From: Sphaerisporangium perillae
GTDB taxonomy: Bacteria > Actinomycetota > Actinomycetes > Streptosporangiales > Streptosporangiaceae
Direction of reading: 5' to 3'
Assembly (NCBI RefSeq): GCF_023276435.1
Contig: NZ_JALLPO010000010.1
Span: forward strand, 89,504 to 153,503
DNA: 64,000 nucleotides
Shown: one piece after another, positions 3,551 to 55,114 of the stretch
Position numbering within the stretch: the stretch's first letter is position 1
How the letters are laid out: each line of letters starts with the position of its first letter
Notes under the pieces: model-generated
Databases searched by the model: none
Told to the model about the DNA's origin: nothing
What the model saw: the letters and a program-made list of their open reading frames with translations, nothing else
Program-made: the position numbers and the translations under genes

Positions 3551-4300
3551 TCATCTCGAACCGGGCACTTCCGGGCCGAAGGATCTGCGGACGATCTGGC
3601 CGGCCTTGCCGGGAACGCCGATGTGCTTGCCGTTGACCTCGAGGTCGACGGCTCCCGCGTTGCCGATCGTGACGCGCACCTCCTTGTGCGCCTTCCAGGT
3701 GGAGGTGTGTCCCGCCTGCATGGTGCCGCGGAACATCGCCTTGCCCTTGTGGTCGCTGACCTCCAGCCAGGAGGGCTTGTTCGCCTTCACCTGGAGTGTC
3801 ACCAGATCGCTCACCGGTTTGGCCGCGTTGGGGTGGGTGGACGGCGAGGCTGAGGTCGCGGGCTTGGACACCGGCGCGGGCGCGGGCTTGAGCTCCGCGC
3901 CGGTCGCGATGTTCTCGCTCGACCGGCTCATCACCCGTGTCACCCCGAAGATGGCCACGATGGCGAGGGCGATCGCCATCGCGGTGGACCAGTTGGGGCT
4001 GCGGCGCTCGCGCAGCTTGATCGTGCTCTCGGCCTGGAACACCGCCGCGGCCCGCACGGGCAGTGGGACGCCGCCGTGTTCCTCGTCGAACTGGTGCACG
4101 ATGGCGTCCGGATCGAGTCCGAGCACCTTGGCGATGTTGCGGACATGACCTCTGGCGTAGAAGTCGCCTCCGCAGAGCGAGAAGTCGTCTCGCTCGATGG
4201 CGTAGATGACCGTCTCCCTTATCCGCGTGCGGCCGCTCAACTGAGCGACCGTCATGCCCGCCGCGTTCCGTGCCGCGGCCAGCGTCACTCCAATGCTCAT
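3551..4300 (-). CDS. RodZ-like helix-turn-helix membrane protein (DUF4115)
   Basis: A 249-residue protein in RodZ order: an XRE-type helix-turn-helix (about residues 5-70, with MTVAQLSGRTRIRE and DDFSLCGGDFYARGHVRN), a basic linker, one membrane span at about 105-123, a Pro/Ala/Ser-rich stretch, and a C-terminal beta-rich DUF4115-like domain (about 165-249). RodZ links cell-shape machinery to the membrane; actinobacterial homologues are less studied and may act in cell-wall synthesis. It sits 99 bp after ftsK and 122 bp before rimO on the same strand. The domain order is seen; the cell-shape role is inferred from the family. Confidence 0.85.
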   Translation of the reverse strand: MSIGVTLAAARNAAGMTVAQLSGRTRIRETVIYAIERDDFSLCGGDFYARGHVRNIAKVLGLDPDAIVHQFDEEHGGVPLPVRAAAVFQAESTIKLRERRSPNWSTAMAIALAIVAIFGVTRVMSRSSENIATGAELKPAPAPVSKPATSASPSTHPNAAKPVSDLVTLQVKANKPSWLEVSDHKGKAMFRGTMQAGHTSTWKAHKEVRVTIGNAGAVDLEVNGKHIGVPGKAGQIVRRSFGPEVPGSR

Positions 4301-47393: not shown

Positions 47394-49955
47394 ATGTTCA
47401 ACCGCCTCAAGGTGGTCGCGCCTGCCGTCCTGGTCTGCGCGCTCGCCCTCCCAGCCGGGGCCGCCCAAGCGGACCCCACCCCCGTGCAGGCACCGACCAC
47501 GTGCGATCCCACCCAGACCGCACCCGTGTACTTGAACAAGGTCCCGACGCCCAAGAGCGTGCTCGGGTTCGACCTCGGCGAGCGCGAGGTCACCTCGGCC
47601 GAGTCCGACACGCTCCTGGAGTCGATCGCCAAGGCCAGCGACCGCGTCGTCTCCGGCACCCTCGCCACGACCGCCCAGGGCCGCCCCCTGAAGTACGCGA
47701 TCGTCGGCAAGGCCGCCAACGTCACCAAGGTCGGGCTCGCCGCCACCGAAGTGGCGATCAAGGCGCTGCGCAGCCCGCTCACCCCCACGGCCCTCGCCAA
47801 GCAGATCGCCAAGCACAACCCGGCCGTCCTGTGGGTCACCGGGAACGTCCACGGCAACGAGGAGAGCGGCGCCGACGCGGCCCTGAAGACCCTGTACGAC
47901 CTGTCGGACCGCGACGACTGCGCCGCCAGGCGGATCCTGGACAACGCGACCGTCGTCATCCTGCCGATCCAGAACCCCGACGGGCGCGAGGCCGACACCC
48001 GCCGCAACGCCTACGGCTTCGACATGAACCGCGACTGGTTCGCCCGCACCCAGCCGGAGACCGACGGCAAGCTCGAACTGCTGCGCAAGTACCCCCCGCA
48101 GCTCTACATCGACGCCCACGAGCAGGGCGGCACGGCGTACTTCTTCCCGCCGAACGCCGACCCGATCTACCACGACATCGCCGAGCCTGCCTACGACTGG
48201 ATCAGCAACCTGTACGGCCAGGCCATGATCGACGAGTTCACCCGTCGCGGCCTGCCCTTCACCAACCGGGACGTCTACGACCTGTTCTACATGGGCTACG
48301 GCGACACGGTGCCGACGACCGGCTTCAACGCCGCGGGCATGACCTTCGAGAAGGGCGGCAGCTCCCCCATCGCCACCCGCGCCTTCGAGCAGTACCTCAC
48401 GCAGTGGGTGTCGCTGTCGGCCGCCGCCTCGCACAAGGAGAGCATCCTGACCACCTGGCACGGCATGTACGCCGAGGCCTACAAGCAGGGCCTCGCCGGC
48501 GAGCTGGAGCCGAACCAGGTCTACAACCCCGGCCACGAGGTCATCACCCAGGTGCCCGACCGGCTCGTCCGCAACTACTTCCTGCGGTCCGATGACCCGG
48601 CCAAGAAGGCGGCCGTCGAGTCGGTGGTGCGGCGCCTGCAGCGCATGGACGTCCAGGTCTACAAGCTGGCCAAGGCGACCACCGTCCCGGACTTCAAGGA
48701 GTACGGCGGCCCGCCGGCCCGCACCACGCTGCCCAAGGGCACCTACTGGATCCCCATGGCGCAGGGCCAGAAGCACTGGATCCAGGCCATGCTCGGCGAG
48801 GACGGCTACACCCCGTTCCCCTACTTCTACGACGTGACCGCGTGGAGCCTGCCGCTGCTGGCCAACGTGTCCGGCGGCTCGTCCGGCACCGCGCTGCCGC
48901 CGATCGCCACCCCCGCCGAGCGGATCCCCGACGTGGTCTCACCCCCGGCTCCCGCCAAGCGGCCCAACGTCGGCGTCCTCGAGCTGTCGGCCACCTCGGG
49001 CACGACGGTCGAGTCCCTCGGCTGGCTGCGGCAGCGCCTCGACCGCGAGTGGAAGCTGCCCTACACCAAGCTCACCCCGGCGGACGTGGCGGCCGGCAAG
49101 CTGTCGGGCCTGGACGTCCTGCTGGTCCCGGCGGGTCCCGCGGCCTCGGCCTCCAATGCCCTCGGCCAGGCGGGGCGTGACACGCTCAAGGCCTGGGTGG
49201 GCGGCGGCGGCCGGTACATCGGCTGGAGCGGCGGCGCGCAGCTCGCCTCCCTGGCGGGCGTCAGCACGGCGAGCTTCACCGAGCCGACCTCCGACGTCCC
49301 GGGCTCCCTGTTCCGCGTCAACGTGGCCAAGGGCCCGCTGGCCGGCGGCGTCGGGTCCACGGCCTGGCAGTTCTACTCCTACGACCCGCTGATGCGCGCC
49401 TCGGACCCCTCCCAGGTGGTCGCCTCCTACCCGGCCGCCGACTCGCCCGACTGGTTCGTCTCCGGCTTCCAGCTCGGCGCCGAGGAGCTCGGCGGCACCG
49501 CCGCGGTGCTGGACGAGCCCGTCGGCCAGGGCCACGCGATCCTGTTCGCGGGCGAGCCGAACTTCCGCGCCTTCACCGACGGCACCACCCGCCTGATCAC
49601 CAACGCCATCGCCGCGGACCTCCCCAATTCCCCCTCGGTCCGCACCGCCACCCCGGAGACATCCCCTGAGAGGACCGTCACCCCCGAGACCACGGAGGCT
49701 CCCAGCGCCACGGCGATCCCCGACCGTGAGTCGCCCATCCGGATCACCGTCAACCCCGCCGACCGGGCCAAGGTGACCTCCGCCCTGACCGGCTTCGGCG
49801 CCAAGTGGACCGAGCGGCCCGGACCCGGCGGCACGGTCCGCTTCGTCGTCGACAACCCCGGCGGCCTCGCCCTCGACGAACACCCCTGGGCCGCCAAGCT
49901 CCCCGCCGCCCTCCGCACCGCCGGAGTGACCCCCCTCGCGGTGGTCCTCCCCTAG
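47394..49955 (+). CDS. Secreted M14 zinc carboxypeptidase with a C-terminal glutamine-amidotransferase-like domain
   Basis: An 853-residue exported protein with Sec signal (RLKVVAPAVLVCALALP, then AGAAQA). The M14 catalytic domain has zinc ligands His153 and Glu156 (NVHGNEESGAD), the NPDGREADTRRN and MNRDW substrate loop, third ligand His242 (IDAHEQGG) and catalytic Glu319 (TFEKGGSSP). From about 520 an added domain starts NVGVLELSATSGTTVESLGW and looks like a class I amidotransferase-type fold (GGRYIGWSGGAQL) without a clear catalytic Cys. The last 110 residues are Thr/Pro-rich, then a small domain. It probably digests extracellular peptides or cell-wall peptides. Confidence 0.87.
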   Translation: MFNRLKVVAPAVLVCALALPAGAAQADPTPVQAPTTCDPTQTAPVYLNKVPTPKSVLGFDLGEREVTSAESDTLLESIAKASDRVVSGTLATTAQGRPLKYAIVGKAANVTKVGLAATEVAIKALRSPLTPTALAKQIAKHNPAVLWVTGNVHGNEESGADAALKTLYDLSDRDDCAARRILDNATVVILPIQNPDGREADTRRNAYGFDMNRDWFARTQPETDGKLELLRKYPPQLYIDAHEQGGTAYFFPPNADPIYHDIAEPAYDWISNLYGQAMIDEFTRRGLPFTNRDVYDLFYMGYGDTVPTTGFNAAGMTFEKGGSSPIATRAFEQYLTQWVSLSAAASHKESILTTWHGMYAEAYKQGLAGELEPNQVYNPGHEVITQVPDRLVRNYFLRSDDPAKKAAVESVVRRLQRMDVQVYKLAKATTVPDFKEYGGPPARTTLPKGTYWIPMAQGQKHWIQAMLGEDGYTPFPYFYDVTAWSLPLLANVSGGSSGTALPPIATPAERIPDVVSPPAPAKRPNVGVLELSATSGTTVESLGWLRQRLDREWKLPYTKLTPADVAAGKLSGLDVLLVPAGPAASASNALGQAGRDTLKAWVGGGGRYIGWSGGAQLASLAGVSTASFTEPTSDVPGSLFRVNVAKGPLAGGVGSTAWQFYSYDPLMRASDPSQVVASYPAADSPDWFVSGFQLGAEELGGTAAVLDEPVGQGHAILFAGEPNFRAFTDGTTRLITNAIAADLPNSPSVRTATPETSPERTVTPETTEAPSATAIPDRESPIRITVNPADRAKVTSALTGFGAKWTERPGPGGTVRFVVDNPGGLALDEHPWAAKLPAALRTAGVTPLAVVLP

Positions 49956-49966
49956 CCCCCCGAATA

Positions 49967-50010
49967 CCTGCGGCTCGCACCCTCCGGACACCGAGGGCGC
50001 GAGCCGCAGG
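49967..50010. terminator. Bidirectional hairpin between the M14 and hydrolase genes
   Basis: CCTGCGGCTCGC and GCGAGCCGCAGG are perfect 12-base arms; CCTC/GAGG inside can pair further. It lies between the convergent genes and can serve both. Confidence 0.75.
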
Positions 50011-50014
50011 CATG

Positions 50015-50791
50015 TCACGCGGGGGAACCGGCGAGCAGGTCCGAGGTCGCGCGGGCGAAGGCGCCGGGATTGTCGAGCATGATGTTGTGTCCGCTGTCGG
50101 GGATCGGGACGAGCCGGACACCGGCGGCCTGGAGCGCGTCTGCGCCCTTCGGCGAGCCGTCCTGGGCGGGGTGGAGGTAGGCGCGGGGGATCTCCAGCCC
50201 GAGCAGGTGCTTGCGCATCGTCGGGGTGGTGCCGCGCGCCAGGTTCACAGCGGTGCGGTACAGCGCCACCGGATCGGCCAGCCGCATCGTCGCCCACCAA
50301 TTCGGGCCGACACGGTCCCGGACCTCGTCCCTGCCGTAGCGCAGGAACTCCTCCTCGGTGTAGGCGGCGATGCCACTGCCGCCGGCGCGGGCGGGAACCG
50401 GTGAGATCGGGTCGAGGTTGGCGTCGACCAGCACCAGGTTGGAGACCAGGCCGGGGTGCCGGGCGGCCAGGACGATGGCCACGGCTCCTCCCATGCTGTG
50501 GCCGATGAGCTGTGCTCCACCCGCTCCGGCGGCCGCGATGACCTCCGCCAGCGCGTCGGCGTGCTCCTCCAGGGTGTAGCCGAAATCGGCCGGGCGATCG
50601 CTGAGACCGAAGCCGAGCAGGTCCACGAACAGCGATCGATGCCCTGCGAGCAGCGGGTCGGCGGCCACCCCCGCGAAGTAGGGAGCCGACATGGCGCCGA
50701 GGCCGTGGACGTAGACCCGGGCGGGCTCGCTCCCGGGCAGCTCGATCCAGCGCATCCTGGCGCCACTCGCGTGGACCTGCGTGTCGTGCAT
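50015..50791 (-). CDS. Alpha/beta-fold hydrolase
   Basis: A 258-residue alpha/beta hydrolase. The oxyanion segment is VYVHGLGAMS, the nucleophile elbow GHSMGG near 94-99, and the late His is in DSGHNIMLDNP. Such enzymes hydrolyse esters, amides or similar bonds; the substrate is unknown. The ATG follows GGGAGAAGG. It is divergent from a PadR regulator, across a region with a direct repeat, and is the likely regulated target. Confidence 0.85.
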   Translation of the reverse strand: MHDTQVHASGARMRWIELPGSEPARVYVHGLGAMSAPYFAGVAADPLLAGHRSLFVDLLGFGLSDRPADFGYTLEEHADALAEVIAAAGAGGAQLIGHSMGGAVAIVLAARHPGLVSNLVLVDANLDPISPVPARAGGSGIAAYTEEEFLRYGRDEVRDRVGPNWWATMRLADPVALYRTAVNLARGTTPTMRKHLLGLEIPRAYLHPAQDGSPKGADALQAAGVRLVPIPDSGHNIMLDNPGAFARATSDLLAGSPA

Positions 50792-50827
50792 GACGGCCTT
50801 CTCCCTCAAATCCGTACGTTGCCCACA

Positions 50828-50854
50828 AGGTATATCGGCTCCGAGGTATAACGG
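50828..50854. promoter_or_regulatory. Direct repeat between the hydrolase and PadR genes
   Basis: AGGTATATCGG (50828-50838) and AGGTATAACGG (50844-50854) repeat with a 16-bp period, differing in one base. They lie between the two divergent starts and just before a -10-like TATGCT (50854-50863 region). Likely PadR operator. Confidence 0.55.
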
Positions 50855-50863
50855 CAAGGGGAT

Positions 50864-51409
50864 ATGCTCTCATCCATGCTCGAACTGGCGATCCTCGGCT
50901 TCCTCCACGAGCGGCCACTGCACGGCTACGAACTGCGTAAACGAGTGGCGGCGCTGACCGGCCACGTACGCCCGATCGCCGACGGCACCCTGTATCCGGC
51001 GATCAAACGGATGGAAACGGCCGGCCGGCTGACCCGCGAGACCCAGCAGGGCGCCGCCGCCGCCCCGCGCCACGTGCTGCACCTCACCCCCACCGGCGAG
51101 CAAGAGCTCCTGCGGCGCCTGAGAGAGCCCGACCACCTGGACATCAGCGACGAGAACCGCTGGTTCACACTGCTGGCGTTCCTGCGTCACCTCGAAGAAC
51201 CCCAGGCACAGGCGGCGGTGCTGCGGCGGCGGCTGGCGTTCCTCGAGCAACCCAGCAGCTTCTTCTACGAGGACGGCCGCCCCATCCGCGCCGAGGACGT
51301 GGACGACCCGTTCCGCCAGGGCCTGCTCACCATCGCCAGAGCCACCAGCGAGGCCGAACTCCACTGGCTGCACGCGACCCTGACCCGGCTCGAAGGCGCC
51401 CCCTCATGA
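50864..51409 (+). CDS. PadR-family transcriptional regulator
   Basis: A 181-residue PadR regulator. LELAILGFLHERPLHGYELR opens the winged helix, PIADGTLYPAIKRMETAGRL is the recognition part, and a helical dimerisation region closes the protein. PadR proteins usually repress a neighbouring gene and release on a phenolic or other ligand. A second ATG four codons later is possible. It is divergent from the alpha/beta hydrolase. Confidence 0.87.
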   Translation: MLSSMLELAILGFLHERPLHGYELRKRVAALTGHVRPIADGTLYPAIKRMETAGRLTRETQQGAAAAPRHVLHLTPTGEQELLRRLREPDHLDISDENRWFTLLAFLRHLEEPQAQAAVLRRRLAFLEQPSSFFYEDGRPIRAEDVDDPFRQGLLTIARATSEAELHWLHATLTRLEGAPS

Positions 51410-51542
51410 CCCCGGCGTCCCCGCACCGCTGACCGCCCAGAGGTCGGCCTCGATGCCGTCGGTCGCCGGTTCCGGGGCGAGCGGCGGATCTGGCGCACAT
51501 CGTTGGCGTGTACTGGAACGACTGGAAGGCCGCTGAAATGAG

Positions 51543-51579
51543 AGGACCGGGGCCCTCTGCTGGGGAGGGCCCCGGTCCT
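51543..51579. terminator. Strong hairpin between PadR and tannase genes
   Basis: AGGACCGGGGCCCTC and GAGGGCCCCGGTCCT are perfect 15-base arms around TGCTGGG, 18 bp beyond the tannase stop and 133 bp beyond the PadR stop. It can terminate from either side. Confidence 0.8.
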
Positions 51580-51597
51580 GATCATGTCAGCTGGGGA

Positions 51598-53130
51598 TCA
51601 GGCCAAGGGATTGACCAGGCAGCGGAAGCTGGAGGCGTCGTTGGAGTCGCCGTACCCCTTGTAGCGGGCGACCTCCGGCCAGGTGCACAGCGGACGGGTG
51701 ATGGTGGAATTGGTGGTGGCCGCCGGGAGGGTCTGCGGGGCTTGGCCCTTCTCGACCCAGTTCACGACGGCGGACAGCGGGTCGGTCGGCGCGGCTCCCG
51801 ATCCGCCGCCGCAGTGGTCGACGCCGGGGGCCAGGAACAGCCGCGCGAAGTTCTCGGTCCGGCTGAGCCCGCCCATCTGCTGGACGACGCGCTGGTAGTA
51901 GTCGATGGAGCCCTGCGGGAAGATCAGGCTGTCGGCCTCACCGTGCCAGATGATGATCTTTCCTCTGGAATCCCGGAAACCGCTAAGGTCCGGGTTGTCG
52001 GTGCCCAGCACGCTGTTGTACTCCTCGCGGGACTGTTCGAAGTACTGGGCGAAGTTGTCTGTGGTGACGGTCGTCCAGTCGAACCCGGGGTCCTTGGCGA
52101 GCCACCACTGGAACCAACTGGTCACGATTGGGAAGGGGGTCTGGACGCCGTTGACGCTGCCGGCCAGGCTGCTCAACCCGGTTCCCGGCGTCAGCCCGTA
52201 CCAGAGGAATGATCCGTCCTTGCTGCGGGGACCCTGCCAGATCTTCTTCATCACCGCGGCGTCCGTAGCGGTGATGGTCCCGCAGCCGGTCTGCCGGCCG
52301 ATGAGCCAGGCGGGATCGAACCGGCACGCGGTGTTGGCGACGATCCCGTCGACGACGCCGTCAGCGCCGTCACAGGCGGTGACGGCGGCCTGGGTGAACG
52401 CCTCCTGCTTGCACGACGGAAGGACGTCGCCCATCTCCCGCATGACGACCTGAGGCCACAGACCGGACGGGACGAAGCGGTCCCAGTTGATCGCGGGAGC
52501 GCCGGACACGATCCCGTCGTAGTCGTCGGGGTATCGCTGGGCCTCCATGAGGCCCTGCCGACCGCCGGTGGAGCAGCCGTTCCAGTACGAGTAGGCGGGC
52601 GAGCGACCGTAGAACGCCTGGGTCACCGCCTTGCCCTTGACGGTCATCTCGTGCAAGGACCGGTAGGCGAAGTCCTGGATCAGGTTGGTCCTCATGCCGG
52701 TAGCAGACCATGCCCACGATCCGTCAAGGAGCGAGCCGGTGTGCCCGGTGTCGGTCACCGCGGCGGCGTAGCCGGACAGGGCGGCGAGGTCGCCGGCCTG
52801 AGTCACCGAGCCGACGTACCCGCCGCCGCCGACGCCGACGAACCGGCCGTTCCAGCCGGTGGTGGGCAACGACACGCCGATGTTGATCTGTTCCGGGACG
52901 ACGAGGTTGACACGGCAGACACCTGTGACGGTGGTGTCATCCGTAGAGGTGACCTTCGTTCCGTCGGTGAAGGTCACCTGCTGCAGGCTGGCGCAGGTCC
53001 TGACGGGAGCCGAAGTCCCGGCCGTGGCGGATGATGCGGACGCCGACGGGCCGAAGGCACCGGCTCCGATCAGCAGAAGTACTCCCAGCATGAAGGCGCC
53101 CCAGCGGGCTCTTCGGAACGGTCTCAACAC
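51598..53130 (-). CDS. Secreted tannase/feruloyl esterase family protein
   Basis: A 510-residue exported esterase. After FRRARWGAFMLGVLLLIGAG and an Ala/Ser signal region, the tannase domain has the nucleophile motif GCSTGGRQG (Ser187), the Asp in IIWHGEADSLIFP and the His in GVDHCGGG. The CS-D-HC pattern, with two Cys flanking Ser and His, is typical of fungal-like tannases and feruloyl esterases, which release gallate or ferulate from plant polymers. The GTG start follows AAGGAGGG, an excellent site. It is the only intact gene of a locus whose transporter genes are reduced to pieces just upstream. Confidence 0.88.
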   Translation of the reverse strand: MLRPFRRARWGAFMLGVLLLIGAGAFGPSASASSATAGTSAPVRTCASLQQVTFTDGTKVTSTDDTTVTGVCRVNLVVPEQINIGVSLPTTGWNGRFVGVGGGGYVGSVTQAGDLAALSGYAAAVTDTGHTGSLLDGSWAWSATGMRTNLIQDFAYRSLHEMTVKGKAVTQAFYGRSPAYSYWNGCSTGGRQGLMEAQRYPDDYDGIVSGAPAINWDRFVPSGLWPQVVMREMGDVLPSCKQEAFTQAAVTACDGADGVVDGIVANTACRFDPAWLIGRQTGCGTITATDAAVMKKIWQGPRSKDGSFLWYGLTPGTGLSSLAGSVNGVQTPFPIVTSWFQWWLAKDPGFDWTTVTTDNFAQYFEQSREEYNSVLGTDNPDLSGFRDSRGKIIIWHGEADSLIFPQGSIDYYQRVVQQMGGLSRTENFARLFLAPGVDHCGGGSGAAPTDPLSAVVNWVEKGQAPQTLPAATTNSTITRPLCTWPEVARYKGYGDSNDASSFRCLVNPLA

Positions 53131-53202
53131 AGTTCTCCCTCCTTGGGGGGTGGGCGGGGGGCGGAGAAGCGTGGATGGGTGGTGCGGAGAGACGCGTGAG
53201 CT

Positions 53203-53339
53203 GAAAGGTGCGAGTCGGCGGCCCATGGCGATCTGGAGGTTCTCCTCGACGGTGAGCGGCGCGAAGACCCGTCGTCCCTGCGGGACGAGCCGACTCCGCT
53301 GCGGGCGACAAGAGCCTCGATGGCCAGCAGGTCTGTCAT
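53203..53339 (-). pseudogene. livF-like ABC ATPase relic with internal deletion
   Basis: The minus strand starts with an ATG giving MTDLLAIEALVAR, the usual beginning of LivF. After a small junction it continues in another frame as LVPQGRRVFAPLTVEENLQI, a LivF segment normally found after Walker A. About 75 residues, including Walker A, are missing between these pieces and the rest of the gene is gone. The ATG overlaps the preceding TGA. Seen directly in translation; the family name follows from the conserved EGRRVFAPLTVEENL motif. Confidence 0.75.
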
Positions 53340-53494
53340 GTCGTGCCTCCGGCGTCGAGGAGGCTGGTCCGCCACACGTAGCCGGGGCCGAGCCCCGAGC
53401 CGCCGCACCCAGTGAGCGCGAGCGTGCCCACAGCGAGGAGGGCGGCCAGTCGGGCTCTCCCTGTCGGAGGGGGGAGGGAGGAGAGGACGCCCAT
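53336..53494 (-). pseudogene. Truncated lipoprotein: signal peptide fused to a foreign tail
   Basis: A 52-residue open frame with a good ribosome site (TAGGAGCC). It begins with a lipoprotein signal (RARLAALLAVGTLALTGC) as in ABC substrate-binding proteins, but only GGSGLGPGYVWRTSLLDAGG follows before the stop. The stop overlaps the livF relic ATG (ATGA). It is most simply explained by one deletion joining the start of a substrate-binding protein gene to the end of another operon gene. What the tail came from is unknown. Confidence 0.6.
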
Positions 53495-53542
53495 GGCGGC
53501 TCCTAGGGGTGGGACGGCGTTGGACGCCGGCAGTGCGCACAT

Positions 53543-53570
53543 AATCTACATATGTGAAGTGATGCGTCAA
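53543..53570 (-). promoter_or_regulatory. Putative promoter of the decayed transporter-tannase operon
   Basis: On the minus strand TTGACG (53570-53565) and TAGATT (53548-53543) are 16 bp apart in an AT-rich segment. The palindrome ACATATGT between the hexamers could be an operator half. It lies 49 bp before the truncated lipoprotein ATG and may still drive the tannase gene. Confidence 0.5.
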
Positions 53571-53734
53571 TAGTTTGTATAGATTGGAGTCATCGATCAT
53601 GGCCACCACCAGGGCACAGCCCAGCACCAGAAGCCATCGCCCCGACAAAAGACAACGTCAGGCATCTGGTACGGAACCTTAACGTCGACTAATGCTGTAC
53701 GTGCTGGCGCTCGACGGCCCAACCGGTCGCTGAT

Positions 53735-53968
53735 TCGCCCGTTGAGTACCCGGCCATGGACGCCGACGAGCTCGGAGATGGTCACGAGCTGGCGGGTGGG
53801 CGCGGCCGACTTGCTCTTACCCGACCTTCTACTTGCGCACCGTGGTCTCGGTGGTGCCCAGATGCACGGCAATGCGCGCCAGCGGCCAGCGCTGCGCGGC
53901 CAGCAACACGATCCGCGCCCGCAGCACCATGACCTGCGGACTGGACGGCCGGTTGACTCGATCGACAA
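53735..53968 (-). mobile_element. IS630-type transposase relic
   Basis: On the minus strand the frame RPSSPQVMVLRARIVLLAAQ continues RWPLARIAVHLGTTETTVRK, the N-terminal helix-turn-helix of IS630-type transposases. It then hits an in-frame TAG where Trp is expected (VRKW). Beyond that only disrupted frames remain. The DDE catalytic part and inverted repeats are not present. This is an old remnant, not a mobile element. Confidence 0.7.
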
Positions 53969-53970
53969 TT

Positions 53971-54017
53971 CTCGCGCCTCCGATCCTCCGGGAGGCGCGA
54001 GCCGCGCTCGTTCGCGG
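53971..54017. repeat. Short inverted repeat beside the IS relic
   Basis: CTCGCGCCTC (53971-53980) and GAGGCGCGAG (53992-54001) are complementary and end just before the ATP-grasp stop at 54018. It can act as the terminator of the ATP-grasp gene and may also mark an old insertion boundary. Confidence 0.5.
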
Positions 54018-54848
54018 TTACAGCAGGTCGCGGAGGGCGGTGGTGAAGCGGTCGGCGGCCGCGGGGGCGTCGGTCAGGTACAGGTAGGGCTCGGTCAGCT
54101 CAAGCTCGATGAGGGCAGGGGTGCCGTCGGCGAGGCGGACAAGGTCGACCCGGCCGTACAGGATCGGCTCGGGGACCGCGGCCAGGACGCGCTCGGCGAG
54201 GGCGAACTGGTCGGGGGCCGGGTCACGGAGATCCACCCCGATATGGCCGGCCCGAGGGGAGCGGGTGCCGTTCGCCAGCATGGGGACACGGCGCAGGCTG
54301 TGGCTGAACCGGCCGCCGAAGTACAGCAGCGAGGTCTCCCCCTCGCCTTCCACCATGTCGAGGTACGGCTGGACCATCGCGACCTTGCCCTTGGCCACCA
54401 GGTTCTTCGCGTGCAGTTCGGCCTCGGCGACGTCGGCCGTGCGGATGGTGTCCCGCGCCCCGGCCGAGACGTTCGGCTTCACGACGTAGTCCTCCCACGC
54501 GGGAAGGTCGATCGGGTCCTCCGGACCGACCCAGTGCGTCGGGACGGTCGGGATACCGAGCCGTGCCAGCTCACGGAGGTAGGTCTTGTCGGTGTTGCGC
54601 TCCAGCACCTCGGCCGGGTTCAGCAGCCGCGTCGCACTCGCCGTCCGGTGCGCCCAGTCGACGAAGTCCTGGCGGCGGTCCACGTAGTTCCACGTCGAGC
54701 GGACCACCGCCGCGTCGAAGGCCGCCCAGTCGGCGGCCGGATCGTCCCAGCGCACCGCCGCGCCCTCGATGCCCGCCCGCTCCCAGGCGGCGAGCAGCAC
54801 CTCACGGTCGTCGTCCGGACCGTCATAGGTGACATAGGCGATCTTCAC
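54018..54848 (-). CDS. ATP-grasp domain protein
   Basis: A 276-residue ATP-grasp protein. KIAYVTYDGPDDDREVLLAA opens a pre-ATP-grasp domain, WEDYVVKPNVSAGARDT is the ATP-binding strand-loop, and YGRVDLVRLADGTPALIELELTEP-type acidic residues (split here as GRVDLV and LIELELTEPYLY) form the metal site. Enzymes of this kind join a carboxylate to an amine or thiol, as in peptide-like or glutathione-like synthesis. The GTG was chosen because GGATGGAG precedes it. The substrate is unknown and no biosynthetic partner is adjacent. Confidence 0.83.
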   Translation of the reverse strand: MKIAYVTYDGPDDDREVLLAAWERAGIEGAAVRWDDPAADWAAFDAAVVRSTWNYVDRRQDFVDWAHRTASATRLLNPAEVLERNTDKTYLRELARLGIPTVPTHWVGPEDPIDLPAWEDYVVKPNVSAGARDTIRTADVAEAELHAKNLVAKGKVAMVQPYLDMVEGEGETSLLYFGGRFSHSLRRVPMLANGTRSPRAGHIGVDLRDPAPDQFALAERVLAAVPEPILYGRVDLVRLADGTPALIELELTEPYLYLTDAPAAADRFTTALRDLL

Positions 54849-55003
54849 GGCACTCCATCCCATTCTCGACAAGTCAGTACCGTGAGCATCGTACGGACAT
54901 GTCACACAAGAGGGACCACCCGCACCGGACGGCAGCCGGCCCGCAATCCCAGCGGAGCGGGATGGAGCCGCGGAACGAGGAGTCACCGCCTCACGCCGAG
55001 CTC

Positions 55004-55114
55004 TCAGGCGACCGCCGCGATCGCCAACTCGTCGGCGTCCAGAGCACTCCGGTCGATGGTGCCGCGTTCGTATGCGATGAGCACATTGGTATCAAGGATC
55101 AGACGTCGGCCCAC
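55004..55114 (-). pseudogene. VapC-type PIN-domain toxin relic
   Basis: From a GTG the minus strand reads RRLILDTNVLIAYERGTIDR and SALDADELAIAAV before a TGA at codon 37. LILDTNVLIAYERG is the PIN-domain start with the first catalytic Asp, and DELAIAAV is the next conserved strand. The remaining three acidic residues are missing, and an ordinary VapC has about 130 residues. It is thus a truncated, inactive copy. Confidence 0.75.

Follow-up and report, generated by a model that had tools for sequence, protein, structure and literature searches.

It has been described that bacterial pseudogenes decay under a deletional bias, and in Salmonella 346 of 378 pseudogenes carry a single inactivating mutation, in most cases a short deletion (PMC2916853). 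The locus reported here lies in a window of 64,000 nucleotides (the whole stretch of DNA that was analysed) from Sphaerisporangium perillae; it resembles those cases in the mutation and deletion of genes that are no longer needed and differs from them in that a five-gene operon has been reduced to four collinear slivers, with the promoter and the last gene surviving. In Betaproteobacteria, genes for branched-chain-type ABC transporters are found beside box genes and a gene for benzoate-CoA ligase, and in the available passages on these clusters benzoate uptake is predicted, not demonstrated (PMC10803450, PMC6449761). Two Streptomyces operons described below are similar in that a liv-type transporter adjoins box genes, but they are actinobacterial, and in them the gene of a tannase-family esterase stands between livF and boxC. 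A further point of comparison is the PF07519 family, which includes MHETase and in which the roles of Ser and His are taken here from passages on that enzyme (PMC7568301); the tannase of the window is alike in its Pfam match, its Ser and His sites and a neighbouring Cys.

We regard it as very probable that the relic is what is left of a promoter-SBP-livH-livM-livG-livF-tannase operon (SBP, substrate-binding protein), of the kind that continues into box genes in two Streptomyces genomes, and that it was cut by at least four deletions and one single-nucleotide deletion while the esterase kept the promoter. Operon decay as a kind of event is known, and the locus is a clear, if essentially ordinary, instance of it; from the start of SBP to that of the tannase about 92% of the sequence has been lost, while gene order, the promoter and the last gene remain, which makes the decay unusually legible. 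The features of the relic are all on the minus strand, from 53570 down to 53203, and a profile alignment resolves positions 53600 to 53214 into four pieces that stand in the order of the intact operon, in agreement with an earlier note on this DNA, in which retained operon order had been claimed. Piece A (53386-53600) comprises the operon's upstream region, a ribosome site, the SBP start codon, a signal peptide with lipobox and SBP codons 1 to about 36; piece B (53353-53385) is a mid-SBP segment of about codons 155-165 that reads YVWRTS; piece C (53311-53352) holds the end of livG (LDAGG..) with its own TGA, an ATGA overlap and the first ten or so codons of livF; and piece D (53214-53310) corresponds to livF codons of about 75-108 (VPQGRRVFAPLTVEENLQIA). 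Piece B and the last livG codons had been lacking in the earlier account. No piece of livH or livM was detected in the window by the profile alignment, livF codons of about 11-74 and beyond about 108 are likewise gone, and a complete liv-type importer (SBP, two permeases and two ATPases) is not encoded at the relic.

The signals that had been proposed upstream are present. The promoter TTGACG-16-TAGATT (53540-53570, minus strand; motif TTGACG..TGTAGATT.TG; contig position G000:C2:143043-143073 by pattern search) matches that of the intact operons, an AGGAG ribosome site precedes the SBP ATG at 53494, and the lipoprotein signal peptide has an LTGC lipobox. The overlapping ATG that was said to follow within 160 bp is the ATGA at 53339, 155 bp past the SBP ATG, from which livF begins as MTDLLAIEAL. 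Two short reading frames result on the minus strand, namely a fused SBP'-'SBP-LivG' frame of 52 amino acids with the lipobox (53336-53494) and a LivF' frame of 71 amino acids (53124-53339), whose stop overlaps the tannase start and whose openness is not significant. A 68-amino-acid lipoprotein frame from 53542 was considered and set aside as too long, homology placing the start at 53494 and the length at 52 amino acids. The exact promoter pattern has two matches in the genome, compared with one for the same pattern read backwards, so that the pattern alone proves little; the stretch 53536-53580 keeps 15 of 15 invariant and seven of nine near-invariant columns of the intact operons.

The profile was built from 16 intact operons, with jumps between operon parts allowed at a fixed cost and coordinates taken from one of them (L163), and it was used in place of a single-operon spliced alignment, which over-fitted at low jump cost. 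In these coordinates, A corresponds to operon positions -113 to +109, B to 464-496, C to 3842-3883 and D to 4079-4179. At a jump cost of 16 the spliced score is 196; 150 shuffles that preserve dinucleotides have a mean of 20.3 (sd 2.3, maximum 29.7), and the reverse complement of the aligned sequence scores 20.5. The breakpoints are identical at costs of 12, 16 and 20, except that at the lower two a small gap divides A once more. Since 14 of the 16 operons entered the profile through a livF match to piece D, and only the two Streptomyces operons through the tannase, the score of D is favoured, while those of A (58.4 and 62.3 bits), B (29.5 bits) and C (25.8 bits) are not. The columns that are invariant among intact operons are largely kept (19 of 22 in the coding part of A, 18 of 20 in B, 14 of 15 in C and 51 of 53 in D), and the collapse therefore looks recent; mean identity of relic to orthologs is nevertheless below that among orthologs in all four coding pieces (0.760 versus 0.817 for D), which counts against strong constraint. 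For the 83 nucleotides that separate piece D from the tannase gene's start, no convincing alignment was obtained to the livF-tannase spacers of the two Streptomyces operons.

It had been proposed that relatives with an intact SBP-livHMGF-tannase operon should be sought, and this order was indeed found in Streptomyces phyllanthi (L067) and in a second Streptomyces genome, G486 (L214), with a tannase directly 3' of livF that is 63% and 62% identical, respectively, to that of the window. The distance from SBP start to tannase start is 4862 nt in L067 and 4754 nt in L214, and 364 nt in the window (from open reading frame calls), which bears out the proposed collapse from the 4.8 kb or so of the intact operons. 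In both genomes the tannase is followed by boxC and then boxB, with the BoxC and BoxB models above cutoff, and the operon of L214 includes a benzoate-CoA ligase gene whose model is also above cutoff. The L214 operon holds, besides the ligase gene, genes of ferredoxin type. The intact operon precedes the tannase at two of 28 distinct tannase loci (15 + 7 + 6), a count in which two loci (L059 and L216) could not show it, their contigs ending less than 1.2 kb upstream of the tannase, and which leaves out seventy further tannase loci (L074-L143). More generally, 13 of 19 regions around good matches carry SBP-livH-livM-livG-livF, with an SBP that is 72-80% identical to this genome's copy, and the remaining fetched regions have more distant liv genes or none adjoining the match.

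The last gene of the relic (51598-53130, minus strand), which had been called intact, encodes a tannase/feruloyl-esterase family protein of 510 amino acids with a signal peptide; it starts with GTG at 53130 behind a strong ribosome site of its own (AAGGAGGG), as had also been claimed, and has no internal stop. Its PF07519 match has a score of 344.6 bits (cutoff 29.8, E 1.3e-102) and extends over positions 3-489 of the 490 in the profile, and in the PDB the protein comes closest to carboxylic ester hydrolases, feruloyl esterases B and MHETase. In an alignment to 8bhh the catalytic Ser, Asp and His and the flanking Cys pair are all present in the contexts GCSTGG, HGEAD and DHC, the Asp of HGEAD being the one that we take to be catalytic in the tannase family. 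The protein groups with the tannases of L067 and L214, which are nearest to it by path, at a clade support of 70/80 that is under the tool's mark and leaves the fork open. A search for a box relic 3' of the tannase found none (score 47; 30 shuffles gave a mean of 45.5 and a maximum of 82), and neither boxB nor boxC is found beside this gene; since no such relic was found, we infer rather than see that the ancestral operon had box genes.

These data are consistent with a sequence of events in which at least four deletions would have taken about 4.4-4.5 kb, one within the SBP gene, one from SBP to the end of livG, one within livF and one from livF to the tannase leader, with the 1-nt deletion on top of them. 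The earlier note had spoken of serial deletions that spared the link between promoter and esterase: the missing transporter, the kept promoter and the intact esterase are as described, and the deletions may well have occurred one after another, through short direct repeats. As the operon promoter and the tannase's own ribosome site are both kept, the old promoter, which would still be working, probably drives transcription of the secreted esterase through a leader of about 400 nt with two short and presumably useless reading frames. It had also been suggested that the transporter once imported the aromatic acid released by the esterase. The aromatic link holds by context, as boxC and boxB after the tannase point to aromatic-acid uptake by the transporter, and the substrate imported may have been an acid such as benzoate freed by the esterase. 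The operon context likewise suggests a benzoate-type ester as substrate of the enzyme, and the association of an actinobacterial esterase, a liv-type importer and a box operon points to benzoate-type esters as a class of substrates that could be tested for this branch of esterases.

Where the collapse took place is a separate matter. The relic and the tannase belong to a segment of about 4.0 kb between two hairpins (50007-53971, ends estimated), together with an abhydrolase gene, a PadR gene and, upstream of the promoter, a helix-turn-helix relic (53832-53933, minus strand; HTH_23, E 1e-6) that may be transposase-like. The bounding hairpins are terminator-like. The gene to the left of the segment (47394-49955) is present in six of ten congeners searched, and in G004, G007, G010 and G005 the next gene of the window (54018-54986) follows at 0.09, 0.9, 2.5 and 0.9 kb, respectively, compared with 4.06 kb in the window; no match to the tannase, the abhydrolase or PadR was found at this place in these four genomes, and the abhydrolase-PadR pair occurs elsewhere in G010. 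Gain of the segment here would seem likelier than repeated loss in the congeners. It is accordingly quite possible, if somewhat short of an even chance, that the operon collapsed elsewhere, before the segment arrived here by horizontal transfer; the absence of the segment from four congeners and the helix-turn-helix relic inside it speak for such a history, while the collapse may as well have followed the arrival, and loss in the other lineages could also account for the pattern. This history is compatible with the main explanation. Further along, at about 55005-55110 on the minus strand, a PIN-domain-like fragment (ILDTNVLIAYERG), for which Pfam has no match with an E value of 1 or less, ends at a stop; its motif is presumably VapC-like.

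The joints between the pieces bear on whether the leader has been kept for its translation. All three resolvable joints of the window, each located only to a few bases, are in frame, with losses counted in the coordinates of L163: that between A and B with a loss of 354 nt, that between B and C, which uses livG's own stop, with a loss of 3345 nt, and that between C and D (..EAL|VARSGV) with a loss of 195 nt. The two LivF pieces of the earlier note are therefore real but their joint is not out of frame, the frame being lost about 22 nt further on by the separate 1-nt deletion. Across the relics of this genome six of seven joints, read by hand and not a random sample, are in frame. It could be argued from these counts, from the kept ATGA overlap and from the overlap of the LivF' stop with the tannase start that in-frame deletions were selected because ribosomes then stay on the mRNA and polarity is avoided, with SBP' and LivF' as relay frames coupled to the tannase. 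We consider this distinctly unlikely. None of the three frames of 53284-53131 contains a stop, and the LivF' phase is open in 92% of 2000 dinucleotide shuffles, an openness so common that selected coupling of LivF' to the tannase is not supported; the leader has no Rfam match, its RNA fold is not unusual (z=0.75), and nothing supports a function of the mini-ORFs. The joint of a broken HAD gene at C47 is, moreover, out of frame.

The frame of short direct repeats offers an account without selection. Among pairs of direct repeats of 5-10 nt, 70-83% are in frame within five related genes and 61-82% within 29 open reading frames of the window (at least 250 aa), counts that cover the GC-rich genes of this comparison only and have no low-GC or shuffled baseline. 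The predominance of in-frame short repeats in GC-rich genes is an effect of codon periodicity, and with 61-83% of such repeats in frame, selection for in-frame joints need not be invoked. Before the seventh joint was added, the probability of at least five in-frame joints out of six was 0.018 if each had a chance of one third, and 0.32 if that chance was 0.65. A self-comparison of 59 loci and the window, of low sensitivity for short pieces, yielded no relic joints beyond the known HAD relic (two overlapping loci, out of frame). As a tentative and rather doubtful generalization, codon periodicity in GC-rich genomes may yield in-frame short repeats through which deletions turn dying genes into in-frame mini-genes, the collapsed operon being a case whose translatable, promoter-driven leader would keep the esterase in an aromatic-acid regulon. 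If this were general, many of the small proteins that are predicted in actinobacteria would have this origin, and the frame bias of direct repeats provides a simple null model for small-protein annotation in GC-rich genes. The frame bias and the esterase-importer-box operon are more interesting by-products than the decay itself; neither was found in a limited search of open-access literature, which does not establish absence from print.

The 52-amino-acid frame, with its proper start, lipobox and ribosome site, might be taken for a member of a conserved array of small genes (a small lipoprotein and a peptide), which is highly improbable: a blastn query of 53190-53510 finds some match in 274 of 341 family genomes, the best being livF at 83-87% over 82-94 bp, but among the matches listed (two candidates per genome scored) none outside this genome spans several pieces. 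A match in G237 to 53405-53353, which crosses a joint, was rejected as chance, as it lies in sequence unrelated to SBP. An assembly artefact joining distant sequence, conceivable in a draft genome of 120 contigs, is scarcely credible given that the pieces lie in operon order inside a 220-kb contig and that no other sequence of the genome exceeds 81% identity to them; with no near-identical copy elsewhere, they are not a chimera of copies that the genome now has.

If the relic is what remains of a transporter-esterase operon, an intact homologous transporter operon in the same genome (C47:56836-61513) may have made the loss tolerable. On two further contigs (C38 and C110) boxB and boxC are free of stops, those of C38 confirmed by models, and with the transporter of C47 these functions therefore survive elsewhere in the genome. 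The intact operon of C47 (L211) stands beside relic box genes: at about 54015-53863 (minus strand) boxB has been cut to its first 12 and last 38 or so codons, in frame, leaving a mini-ORF of 50 amino acids. This relic adjoins an N-terminal fragment of boxC and the broken HAD gene, and genes like PaaZ and PaaX there still have open frames. At C47:56356-56450, immediately before the intact operon, the operon promoter is probably present a second time, with some 12 SBP codons and then a stop, an assignment that is outside the best profile path and is based on a pattern match and weak blastn matches. A second tannase relic at C110:10745-11340 (minus strand; L050) shows two in-frame gaps relative to the window tannase, at an identity of only 29-36%, and one of these gaps removes the region of the serine site.
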